This document shows, piece by piece, positions 59,439 through 62,695 of a DNA stretch of 64,000 nt (position 1 is its first letter; each line of letters begins with the position of its first letter). The DNA is from Actinoplanes sp. L3-i22. GTDB lineage: Bacteria > Actinomycetota > Actinomycetes > Mycobacteriales > Micromonosporaceae. The notes below the pieces were generated by a model. The model did not search any database. It was not told the DNA's origin and saw nothing but the letters and a program-made list of their open reading frames with translations. Made by a program: the position numbers and the translations under genes. The stretch spans positions 4,844,501-4,908,500 of the forward strand of contig NZ_AP024745.1 in assembly GCF_019704555.1 (NCBI RefSeq), in the 5' to 3' direction.

Positions 59439-59588
59439 GCCGCCCCGGCGGCCCACGGTGCGCGTTCTCGCTCTCTTCGTACTCCTCAGCAGGCAGGCCA
59501 GAACGCGGGCCTCGGTGGCGAGCCGGCCTGGCCGGGTTCCCAACTGCTGACCAGGTTGTTGGTCATTGTTGGCCGCCGTCGAACGCAT

Positions 59589-60952
59589 GTGCCAATCATC
59601 AGGTTTCTGTGGGTAGCGGGGTGGCTACTCCGCCATGGCAGAAGTGAATCATTTCGATGAGGTTGTCGAGGTCGGCGTAGCCGTGGGCGCGGGCCTGGAT
59701 CCGGCGGATGCCGGCGTTGATGGCTTCCAGGAGTGAGTTCGAGAGTTGGAGATGGATCGCGTTGAGGATGCTGTCGTGGTGGCGGCGCAGTCGTTTGGCG
59801 AGGGTGACGAACGCGTTGATGCCACTGCGTTTGGCCCGGTTGATCCAGCGGCGCAGGTGGTCGGCGGCGTCTGCGGCGGGGATCCGGTAGATCTGGCGGA
59901 GGTTTTCTTTCAGTTGCCAGGCCCGGTGCAGTCGCGGGTGTTTGCGGCGCAGTTGTTCGATGATCGCCGCGCGGATCGCATCGTGTTTCTCACCCGGCTG
60001 GCGCAGGGTGCCGCGGACCTTCTGCCAGGTCTGGGCGGGTGTCATCGTGTCCACGCTGATTTTTACGCCCTGTTCGCGGACGGTGCTGTAGGCAAGATCT
60101 AGGGCTTCGCCGGCCCATTTCACGACGTGGAACGGGTCCAGGCAGATCGGGGCGTGCGGGAGGTGCGTGGTCGCGGCTTTGCGGTAGATCGCGGTCATGT
60201 CCATACTGACCGCCTCGATCCGGGCCATGCCTTCCGTGCCCAGCGAGGTCAAGAAGTCGCCGAATACCTGCTGGTTACGGCCTTCGCCGATGAACAGGAC
60301 CCGGCCGGTGTCGTGGTCGGCGACCACGGTCAGGAACTGGCGGCCGCGCCGGTAGGCGATCTCGTCGACGCCGATGCGGTAGACGTTGTCGAGCCGGTCG
60401 ATGTCCAGGTGTTCATCGACCAGATTGCGTACCAGGGCGTCGACTTTCTCCCAGGTGGTGCCCAGCACCTTCGCGACCCCGGTCTTCGACATCCGTTTGA
60501 CCAGCCAGCAGGCCATGTCCTCGAAGTCACGGGTGAACCGGGAACCGGGCCGGGCCCAGGGTGTCCACTCGGTACGGACCCGGCCGCATCCACGGCAGTC
60601 GACCCGGCGGATGTCGGCCTCGATCCACACGACCGAACGACCAAATGCCAGGTGACGCCCCCTGCGCCGGGACCGGTCGTAGCGGGCCCGGCTCGTGCGC
60701 CCGCACGGGCAGACCAGCATCGCGGAGGTCAGCCGTACCGAAACGACCATTTCGGCCCCCTCGAAACGTACCCCCTCGACGGCCGTTGCCTTGAAACCCA
60801 GAAGACGGTTGATGACCGTAGCGGCGCGCACGTGGATCCCTTGTTCAGCATGGCTTTAGACACCTCCTGAACGAGTTGGACCTCCACGGCGCGCCGCCCT
60901 TTTTGTGCGTTAAACCCCTAAAACGGACCCACAGAAACCTGAGGATTGGCAC
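59589..60952 (-). mobile_element. ISL3-family insertion sequence
   Basis: A complete insertion sequence of 1364 bases. The left inverted repeat (59589-59614, reading GTGCCAATCATCAGGTTTCT and six more bases) matches the right one (60927-60952) with one mismatch over 26 bases. It carries one transposase gene. The four bases GCAT border it on both sides (59585-59588 and 60953-60956); ISL3 elements usually make eight-base target duplications, so the last four may have mutated or the boundary may be off. Confidence 0.88.
59599..60831 (-). CDS. ISL3-family transposase
   Basis: Full-length transposase of 410 residues. An N-terminal zinc-finger region (VCPCGRTSRARYD; DCRGCGRVRT) and helix-turn-helix (DMACWLVKRMSKTGVAKVLG) are followed by a DDE core (IGVDEIAYRRGRQFLTVVAD; SMDMTAIYRKA; the late part HYAD-type LDPFHVVKWA) and an end with ARAHGYADLDNLIEMI. 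No frameshift is visible, so it may be active. The stop lies inside the left inverted repeat. It is transcribed away from the TnpB-related gene at 60971. Confidence 0.93.
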   Translation of the reverse strand: MRAATVINRLLGFKATAVEGVRFEGAEMVVSVRLTSAMLVCPCGRTSRARYDRSRRRGRHLAFGRSVVWIEADIRRVDCRGCGRVRTEWTPWARPGSRFTRDFEDMACWLVKRMSKTGVAKVLGTTWEKVDALVRNLVDEHLDIDRLDNVYRIGVDEIAYRRGRQFLTVVADHDTGRVLFIGEGRNQQVFGDFLTSLGTEGMARIEAVSMDMTAIYRKAATTHLPHAPICLDPFHVVKWAGEALDLAYSTVREQGVKISVDTMTPAQTWQKVRGTLRQPGEKHDAIRAAIIEQLRRKHPRLHRAWQLKENLRQIYRIPAADAADHLRRWINRAKRSGINAFVTLAKRLRRHHDSILNAIHLQLSNSLLEAINAGIRRIQARAHGYADLDNLIEMIHFCHGGVATPLPTET

Positions 60953-60970
60953 GCATGTACTATTCGCCGG

Positions 60971-62641
60971 GTGAAGGCGAGGCGGCGGAGCAAGGCGTTG
61001 CGGCCGATCGCGGCGCCGTTCGTCGTCGCCCCGCCTACCGGCACCCGCATCCGGACCAGACTGCGGCCCAGCACCGGCGAGGCTGCTGTCCTGACACAGG
61101 TCGCAACCTTTTTGGGTGGGCTGTACCGGGCTGATCTGGCCAGGCGTGTCCGGCTCGGCAATGTGTCCGGCAAGGACACCCAGCGCACGCGGCGTAAGCG
61201 GGAGTTGACCGCGGTCACGACCTCCCGGTGGGCCGGCTCGATCACCCGGACCGCCGAAGACCAATACCAACTCGGGATACGGGCTCTCAAAGCCGACGTG
61301 TCGAGCCTGGGTCAGGCCCTGACCATCCTGGACGCGCGGATCGCCGCCCCGGTCGGCGGCCGGGTCGGCCGGATATCCGGTTATGCCAGCCGGCGCGAGC
61401 GGGCCGCCAAGCAACAGCGCCGCCAAGCCTTGGCCGCCCGCGCCGCCGCCGCCCGAGATCGGCTGGCCGATGGTCGTCCGGCGATCGTTGCGGGCGGACG
61501 GCGGCTGGCCAAGACCCGCCACCGGCTCGGCAGCGCCGGGCTCACCCAGGCGCAGTGGCGGGCCCGGTGGGACGCGGCCCGCATGTTCCTGACCGCCGAC
61601 GGCGAGACCGGCGCCCCGCACGGCAACTACACCATCACCGTCACGCCCGGCGGCGTCGTGTCAATCGCGCTCCCGTCCCAGCTCAAGCATCTAGCGAACG
61701 CCGGACGCGGCAGATACCGCCTCGCCGAGCCGGTCGCGTTCACCCATCGGGCCGGGCAGTGGACCGACCGGGTCACCGCCGACCGGTCGGTGCGCTACGA
61801 CATCAGCTTCGATGCGGTGCGGGGCCGCTGGTACCTGGACGCCTCCTGGACAGCCCCGGCCTACACGCCCGGCCTGGACGCACTCGCCGGCGGCAGGCTA
61901 CTGGGTATCGACCTGAACGCCGACCATCTCGCCGCGCACGTCATCGACGCGCACGGCAACCCGGTCGGCACCCCGATCACCATCCCGCTCAACCTTTCCG
62001 GCCCGGCCTCGCAACGCGACGGACGGCTACGCGCTGCGATCAGCCACGCCCTGCACCTCGCGCACCTGCACGGCTGCCCGGCGATCGCGGTCGAGAACCT
62101 GGGCTTCGCCGACGCCCGTGCTACCGGCCGGGAGACCCTCGGCCGCGGCGCGCGCGGCAAGCGGTTCCGGCGTACGGTCGCCGGGATCCCCACCGCACAG
62201 TTCCGCGACCGTCTCGCCGGCATGGCCTACACCGCCGGGATCGCAGTGATCGCCGTCGACCCCGCCTACACCTCTAAATGGGGCGGGCAGCACTGGAAAC
62301 CCGCCCTCACCAGTAAGACTCCCGCCGCGACCCGGCATCATGCCGCGGCGGTGGTGATCGCACGACGCGCCCACGGCTTCACGGCACGGCGACGGCCAGG
62401 TGTCACCCGGACACGACCAGCGGATCGCGCCCGGGAAACTACCGGCCAGGCCGCACCCCACACCACGGGCGTCAGGGAACAACAGTTCGGCCCGGTCGAG
62501 ACGGCACGCACCACACCCGTGGACAAGACGCGCCCGGCCCCGACCAGAAACCCCGACGTTCCCCGGCCTCGAAGACCGCTCGCGAGGCCCCCGACCCCCG
62601 GTCGGGACCAGCGTATTGACCAACTATGGCCAATACGCTGA
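60971..62641 (+). CDS. TnpB-related protein with altered RuvC motif III and no zinc ribbon
   Basis: A 556-residue protein of the TnpB-related group common in Actinobacteria (IS200/IS605 accessory type). N-terminal features are RRRSKALRPIAAPFVVAPP, RTRLRPSTGEAAVLTQV and SRWAGSITRTAEDQYQ. RuvC I is GIDLNADH (Asp314) and RuvC II VENLGF (Glu375). Canonical TnpB has a CxxC zinc ribbon and a late DxxxNAA; here they are VDPAYTSKWGGQHW and RHHAAAVVIARRA (His456-His457). The tail is long and Arg/Pro-rich. GTG at 60971 starts 18 bases after the ISL3 repeat. No TnpA is adjacent. Nuclease activity is uncertain. Confidence 0.85.
   Translation: MKARRRSKALRPIAAPFVVAPPTGTRIRTRLRPSTGEAAVLTQVATFLGGLYRADLARRVRLGNVSGKDTQRTRRKRELTAVTTSRWAGSITRTAEDQYQLGIRALKADVSSLGQALTILDARIAAPVGGRVGRISGYASRRERAAKQQRRQALAARAAAARDRLADGRPAIVAGGRRLAKTRHRLGSAGLTQAQWRARWDAARMFLTADGETGAPHGNYTITVTPGGVVSIALPSQLKHLANAGRGRYRLAEPVAFTHRAGQWTDRVTADRSVRYDISFDAVRGRWYLDASWTAPAYTPGLDALAGGRLLGIDLNADHLAAHVIDAHGNPVGTPITIPLNLSGPASQRDGRLRAAISHALHLAHLHGCPAIAVENLGFADARATGRETLGRGARGKRFRRTVAGIPTAQFRDRLAGMAYTAGIAVIAVDPAYTSKWGGQHWKPALTSKTPAATRHHAAAVVIARRAHGFTARRRPGVTRTRPADRARETTGQAAPHTTGVREQQFGPVETARTTPVDKTRPAPTRNPDVPRPRRPLARPPTPGRDQRIDQLWPIR
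62610..62639 (+). repeat. Hairpin at the 3' end of the TnpB-related gene
   Basis: AGCGTATTG-A-CC / GG-C-CAATACGCT with a six-base loop: 11 pairs and one A-C mismatch, covering the stop codon. It may be a terminator or the right-end hairpin of the original element, and part of a guide RNA if one exists. Confidence 0.55.
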
Positions 62642-62695
62642 GGAACGGTGAGACTTGTTCCCGCCGTGTGGTCCCGGGTTCCTACGGTGGTCGGC

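Follow-up and report, generated by a model that had tools for sequence, protein, structure and literature searches.

The window analysed here is a stretch of 64,000 nucleotides from Actinoplanes sp. L3-i22 (RefSeq assembly GCF_019704555.1, contig NZ_AP024745.1, positions 4,844,501 to 4,908,500 of the forward strand). Close to its right end lies a gene for a relative of TnpB, a protein regarded as the ancestor of Cas12, and the gene forms part of a mobile element. A preliminary description of this DNA had suggested that the product may be either a domesticated RNA-guided DNA-binding protein or a protein with an unusual active site. The gene and the limits of its element are as follows, in window coordinates.

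59533..59537, plus strand: CGGGT just left of the element, a candidate transposon-associated motif (TAM) that has GGT in common with the right end; CGGGT is present in six of the seven own-genome copies
59538..59590, plus strand: left-end part of the TnpB element, before an ISL3 insertion; 59533-59590 is BLAST-matched in four of the six other copies, and in copy L013 by eye
60971..62641, plus strand: tnpB-like gene, 556 amino acids, GTG start, without a zinc ribbon; D314, E375, H456
62391..62649, plus strand: putative omega-RNA (right-end RNA, reRNA) region that extends over the final part of the open reading frame (ORF), 5' border approximate; recognised by low synonymous variation and covarying structure in relatives
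62641..62649, plus strand: right end AGGAACGGT
62650..62669, plus strand: flanking DNA, putative guide segment of the window copy's omega-RNA, given by position only and drawn to the guide length of known TnpBs

The genome, a single contig of 12.0 Mb, contains six further near copies, two of which each show up as two matches. The window copy and the other six share 93-95% identical DNA over a 1.7-kb body that runs up to AGGAACGGT, and their flanks are unrelated. The right end or a near variant of it occurs in 80 of 89 tails of relatives, where its nine bases are conserved at 96-100% each and the next 20 bases at 28-44%. The left end point was set by searching for GGGT around that end. In L012 (loci are given as L numbers) the left end is divergent and resembles that of the other copies only from about 25-30 bases ahead of the start codon onwards. 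The genome also holds a single 46% identical relative, L029 (C1:8419840-8421282). It has a glutamate at residue 457 (RHEAAS) and a right end AGGAACGGT of its own.

Further evidence for the element comes from an empty site. When the flanks of copy L017 (own genome, C1:6252461-6254653) were joined and searched against 67 genomes of the genus, they matched two of them continuously, with 445 of 450 bases aligned at 96% and 93% identity. The site in these two genomes reads GCCGCCGGGT/TCGGGG and lacks the element, which confirms the element boundary for L017 only. In this one copy, insertion took place at a GG-containing core without target duplication, as is usual for IS607 TnpB elements, leaving GGGT on the left and GGT on the right. 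L017 splits a gene that is intact in the two genomes; read from its translation by eye, the gene looks WD40/TolB-like. Recent movement is also indicated by two pairs of relatives, each pair within one genome. L063 and L067 are 98.9% identical over 2401 bases and both of their flanks differ, and L113 and L120 share 99.9% identity over 2243 bases but differ in their right flanks; the left edge of this pair falls beyond the stretch compared.

The family is IS607-type TnpB, mostly TnpB-only, because an IS607 TnpA, a serine recombinase, or its remnant lies upstream of tnpB in 14 of 92 loci, three of them partial or weak (L025, L049, L055). Two of these TnpA proteins pass the IS607 profile NF033518 with 188.9 and 196.4 bits against a cut-off of 110. 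The window copy has no TnpA, as had been noted before. A different IS607-type TnpA (114.9 bits, above the cut-off) stands elsewhere in the own genome at L020/L003 (C1:4164253-4166360), and a frame of 669 codons that encodes a zinc-ribbon TnpB-like protein comes after it.

A scan of species genomes confirmed at least 516 loci among at least 597 pattern matches listed; 80 were kept, and their titles are actinobacterial. Matches occur in 4 of 67 genomes of the genus, own included (one merely a remnant), and in 7 of 148 genomes of the class, again counting the own genome; two of the seven reach no better than E 2e-5 and 4.3e-5. In one genome of the genus, two loci encode proteins that are identical to those of Actinoplanes couchii loci. 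Twenty-six plasmid records carry a match, and no relatives were found in viral contigs or phage records.

Active site of the family

Two RuvC catalytic residues are retained in the ORF. Profile-profile alignment with 18 zinc-ribbon TnpBs (E 2e-8 to 4e-10) identifies D314 as the RuvC-I aspartate and E375 as the RuvC-II glutamate, pairing GIDLNADHLAA and AIAVENLGF of the ORF with GIDLGVTHFAV and LIVIEDLNV. The RuvC domain ends in RHHAAAVVIARR, with no aspartate at 455-460. Where a cysteine ribbon is expected the protein reads TSKWGGQHW, and TSxWGxxHW is common to the family in the 90 aligned rows. A full-length four-cysteine zinc ribbon was not found: PF07282 covers residues 410-436 only and scores 19.3 bits, below its cut-off of 26.3. 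The guided_TnpB model NF040570 gives a partial match to residues 370-436 (E 6.9e-9; 35.5 bits, below the cut-off of 100). The preliminary description had thus been correct on the two retained residues, the missing ribbon cysteines, and the missing third aspartate. At the loci L123, L125, L126, L127, L130, L134, and L151, which encode canonical zinc-ribbon TnpBs of the class, the second ribbon half is CxC, not CxxC.

The family alignment consists of the window copy and 89 loci (90 rows; the identical pairs L024/L052 and L027/L082 stay counted). D314 is present in all 90 rows, E375 in 89 (the other is truncated), and H456 in 88 (of the other two, one is truncated and one frameshifted). Residue 457 varies among the 88 H456 rows: 44 have D, 36 have H, 5 have E, and 3 have A. 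A tree of 86 rows, which leaves out L043 (frameshifted) and L037, L038, and L046 (short or truncated), requires seven changes at residue 457, A having arisen three times, and H456 is constant. In other words, only the first of the two histidines singled out in the preliminary description is conserved.

The retention of D314 and E375 also bears on domestication, that is, on a nuclease-dead, TldR-like regulator kept for RNA-guided repression of host genes. TldRs are likewise TnpB relatives with changed RuvC residues, and the loss of the zinc ribbon and the third aspartate, together with the lack of a TnpA at the window copy, would suit such a protein. However, TldRs are described as nuclease-dead, with a RuvC inactivated by mutation and with strong links to non-transposon genes such as fliC (PMC13418256). 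The present family keeps D and E and is mobile. Since the seven copies have unrelated flanks and an empty site exists in two genomes, there appears to be no fixed genetic partner. Taken with the TnpA genes and remnants in part of the family, these findings make domestication the least probable of the readings weighed here.

Which residue fills the third catalytic position? In zinc-ribbon TnpBs, the RuvC-III aspartate (RDxNAAxNI) was present in 31 of 35 loci, four being not read and one place being present twice. If residue 456 corresponds to it, the family has a histidine there in 88 of 90 rows. The lack of a zinc ribbon kept profile-profile alignment from placing the last helix, and therefore a register test and a RuvC-only fold were used. 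In the register test, the last helix was slid along the 18 zinc-ribbon TnpBs. The best mean BLOSUM62 score was obtained at 456, 0.065, or 0.132 without the aspartate column, which is not independent because the 18 sequences were chosen with Asp in the motif. The score at 457 was -0.598, or -0.801 without that column, the lowest of nine offsets.

The RuvC-only predicted model has a predicted local distance difference test score of 87.4, and of the 50 rows listed for its overlays on solved structures, 48 end at R466. Residues were paired by counting back along the helix from R466, assuming a gap-free helix, and only rows with a numberable third catalytic residue were used. In these overlays the modelled H456 would fall on residue 143 of Thermus thermophilus RuvC (four entries), 138 of E. 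coli RuvC, 510 of UnCas12f1, 467 of CnCas12f1, 406 of OsCas12f, and, in two rows, 401 of AsCas12f; none of the rows puts the third residue on 457. Residues 467, 406, and 401 are Asp from sequence ranges, provided that the structure entries number residues like their sequences. D510 is what we take to be the third catalytic residue of UnCas12f1, and T. thermophilus RuvC presumably has a further residue, D146, where the family has A459. Rows for P. aeruginosa and D. radiodurans RuvC (139 on H456), SpCas12f1, Al3Cas12f, Cas12a, Cas12k, IscB, IsrB, Tex, and SPT6 were left unused, and those for the fowlpox (132) and canarypox (131) resolvases disagree by one residue.

Because the register test and the numberable overlays favour 456, the third catalytic place is most likely His456 in the whole family, including the members with D457. 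It is unlikely that 457 takes this role, in which case the D457 and E457 relatives would be active and the group with two histidines, the window gene included, would consist of nickases or nuclease-dead RNA-guided DNA binders. This alternative draws on the acidic residue at 457 in 44 (D) and 5 (E) of the 90 rows and on the position of the HH rows in the tree, where they form one deep group of 31 of the 86 rows, plus separate H cases. The register scores and the overlays, however, argue against it, as does the repeated change of 457 next to a constant H456. Furthermore, D314 and E375 are kept in rows with H or A at 457, and seven such rows have an upstream TnpA match of ~200 residues or more (L042, L053, L057, L058, L063, L067, L101). 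The TnpA open frame in L067 is only 129 amino acids.

A third-place His456 has a precedent. Most species have Asp as the third RuvC residue, whereas the Deinococcus-Thermus phylum has His, and T. thermophilus RuvC, which is not RNA-guided, is active with His143 and gains activity from H143D (PMC3834835). This His143 and Cas9 H983 have been likened to each other, and both are said to coordinate metal ion A (PMC8112549). By analogy, a functional though slower D-E-H site is plausible for the family protein because T. thermophilus RuvC is active with His143 and more so with H143D.

The preliminary description had further compared RHHAAAVVIARR to the HHAxDA helix (RuvC-III) of IscB and Cas9. The likeness stands for the pair of histidines in the last RuvC helix, but the conserved one is the first, H456, which in the model overlays H143 of T. 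thermophilus RuvC, and the second is variable. The aspartate of HHAxDA is absent from the family, there being no Asp at 456-460, and Pfam gave no HNH domain in the ORF at E up to 1.

Putative structured RNA at the 3' end

Two putative hairpins lie near the right end of the window copy.

62565..62589, plus strand: hairpin GGCCTCG-AAGACCGCTCG-CGAGGCC, whose loop ACCG(T/C)TC is the complement of the right end, apart from one mismatch in the window copy
62610..62639, plus strand: terminal hairpin AGCGTATTG...CAATACGCT adjoining the right end, read from sequence

The last 200 bases were aligned for 44 D-clade loci (A4, from 49) and for 14 HH-clade loci (A5, from 28), and each alignment yields a hairpin with ACCGTTC in its loop. 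In A4, the hairpin together with the loop-to-end pairing has 95.8% standard pairs and a covariation of 0.304, versus 0.120 in shuffled alignments (0 of 500 as high); slid versions of the pairing reach at most 0.098. Six of the eight hairpin pairs show double-sided changes. In 63 of 77 loci the loop is enclosed by a stem of five or more pairs, versus 229 of 1500 with shuffled arms. The terminal hairpin, found across the family in 42 of 77 loci versus 532 of 1540 shuffles, is too weak to claim. Rfam gave nothing at gathering thresholds in the window; one match far below the gathering score adjoins the element. The covariation and the right-end box point to a structured 3' RNA that ends at the right end, a feature of TnpB elements. 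The preliminary description had named the lack of both a 3' RNA and conserved active-site residues as grounds for giving up its proposal; the conserved H456 and the covarying 3' structure instead favour the part of it that concerns a TnpB-related protein whose active site is unusual and whose gene has an RNA-like 3' region.

Selection differs along the ORF. Over the seven copies, the ratio of nonsynonymous to synonymous polymorphism (pN/pS) was 0.379 for residues 1-307, 0.149 for 308-475, and 0.623 for 476-556. Synonymous variation in the same segments was 0.126, 0.197, and 0.061, so the tail is 2.1 and 3.3 times lower than the other two. By these two measures, the RuvC part is held as protein, and the ORF tail looks to be held as nucleic acid.

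Proposed function and known systems

Its fold, its mobility, and an RNA-like 3' end mark the gene product as a TnpB. Two usual TnpB features, the third aspartate and the zinc ribbon, are lacking, and we place it in a divergent IS607-type lineage. It is probably a zinc-less TnpB with a D-E-H site and an attenuated RNA-guided nuclease. We consider it rather likely that this TnpB-only derivative of an IS607-type element carries out omega-RNA-guided, slowed cleavage of the emptied site and so aids persistence of the element. The sequence itself shows the element, its copies, the one empty site, the IS607 TnpA linkage in part of the family, the RNA covariation, and the conserved D, E, and H; expression, RNA guidance, TAM use, cleavage, and this role are what we infer from it. 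The 3' end of the tnpB mRNA would be shaped into the omega-RNA, its right-end box AGGAACGGT would pair with the hairpin loop, and the DNA flanking the insertion would serve as guide. TnpB with its omega-RNA would then recognise the same flank behind a CGGGT TAM, in other words the emptied donor or sister site, and the RuvC site of D314, E375, and H456 would cut it. H456 in place of the third Asp may hold a metal ion like His143 of T. thermophilus RuvC, so that cleavage would be slowed and not abolished. The cut would tend to be repaired from a copy that still carries the element. Nicking or binding alone, instead of full cleavage, is less likely.

Several observations weigh against this account. 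The zinc ribbon, absent here, belongs to the DNA-loading region of TnpB. In three of five AsCas12f rows, D401 falls on 454, two residues before H456. A4 contains 6 pairs with double changes, a number that does not stand out from the shuffled alignments (mean 4.9; reached in 49 of 500). In 98.4% of cells the loop-to-right-end arm (ACCGTTC with GAACGGT) is paired, yet it hardly varies, and the loop-to-end pairing is therefore untouched by the covariation test. There is no TnpA at 78 of 92 loci, all seven near copies among them, although some loci are cut by contig ends. Finally, tnpB is frameshifted in two of the seven own copies, L016 and L017 (547 and 425 codons long, each frame having an altered end), which is compatible with decay.

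The last of these findings, together with the absence of a close TnpA in the own genome (a search for a matching one gave only a 35% identical protein), would fit elements that are moved by TnpA and whose TnpB is merely carried along and eroding. The pN/pS of 0.149 in the RuvC part, the catalytic residues retained across 90 rows, and the retained structured RNA argue against erosion, and such a passenger role seems highly improbable.

How does the proposed slowed nuclease compare with known systems? IS607 TnpBs with a reRNA, such as that of ISFba1, resemble the family in the IS607 TnpA partner (in part of the family) and in an RNA from the element's 3' end, and the ISFba1 TAM, 5'-AGGAG, is G-rich like the candidate CGGGT (PMC11061315). 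The family differs from them in lacking the zinc ribbon, in the histidine for the third Asp, in an RNA without an Rfam match, and in the right-end box AGGAACGGT. ISDra2 TnpB shares the RuvC D and E, and its RNA-guided cutting beside a TAM has been demonstrated (PMC8612924), whereas here it is proposed; by alignment, ISDra2 TnpB differs in its four zinc cysteines and in the motif DRDENAALNI, whose Asp is residue 361. Pro-Fanzor IS607 TnpBs and Fanzors are likewise an IS607 TnpB lineage with an altered RuvC site; they have a repositioned Glu and retain the CxxC zinc motifs (PMC10711439), whereas here the Glu is canonical and the third Asp is changed. Titles and abstract openings of papers on TnpB (IS607, Streptomyces, actinomycetes, RuvC and zinc changes, nuclease-dead TldR, the RuvC-III His) do not name the family, which the work on TnpB/Cas12 classification and on TldR discovery may describe; PMC9956272 deals with six other species.

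Unlike the family, AsCas12f1 and SpCas12f1 (type V-F) keep the third catalytic Asp and the zinc ribbon, are CRISPR-linked, and act as dimers. There is perhaps an even chance that a large actinobacterial lineage of IS607 TnpBs carries out RNA-guided cleavage with a D-E-H RuvC site and no zinc ribbon, in a metal-ion or rate setting unlike that of the TnpB and Cas12 proteins compared, and that recurrent D, H, E, or A at 457 tunes activity, possibly to nicking. If true, a widespread and still-moving family without a zinc ribbon and with His for Asp would test which parts of the enzyme are needed, and it may supply slow or nicking RNA-guided enzymes. A histidine as third RuvC ligand in an RNA-guided nuclease would be directly assayable, as the RNA structure, a TAM candidate, and the right end are defined.

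ISL3 insertion upstream of tnpB

The region just before the start codon of the window copy contains a second element.

59591..60950, minus strand: ISL3-family insertion sequence inside the TnpB element, with terminal inverted repeats GCCAATC(A/C)TCAGGTTTCTGTGGG; the only full-length copy found in the genome
59599-60831, minus strand: ISL3 transposase, within the ISL3 element
59583..59590, no strand: left copy of the 8-bp target duplication ACGCATGT
60951..60958, no strand: right copy of the target duplication ACGCATGT, 8 bp
60958..60963, plus strand: TACTAT, a -10-like box 7 nucleotides before the GTG, read from sequence and present in all six other copies

The left end of the TnpB element resumes on the far side of ISL3 (59538-59590), which shows that ISL3 inserted into the TnpB element. 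The preliminary description had rightly placed ISL3 next to the tnpB start, but its end at 60950 lies 20 bases before the GTG, not 18, with the ACGCATGT duplication between them; the tnpB ORF is intact. The TACTAT box suggests a leaderless start of tnpB. A consensus scan found no promoter-like site in copy L014, and the -10 reading comes from the sequence alone. In the window copy, the sequence upstream of the TACTAT box is severed by the ISL3 element, which probably lowers expression of this copy.
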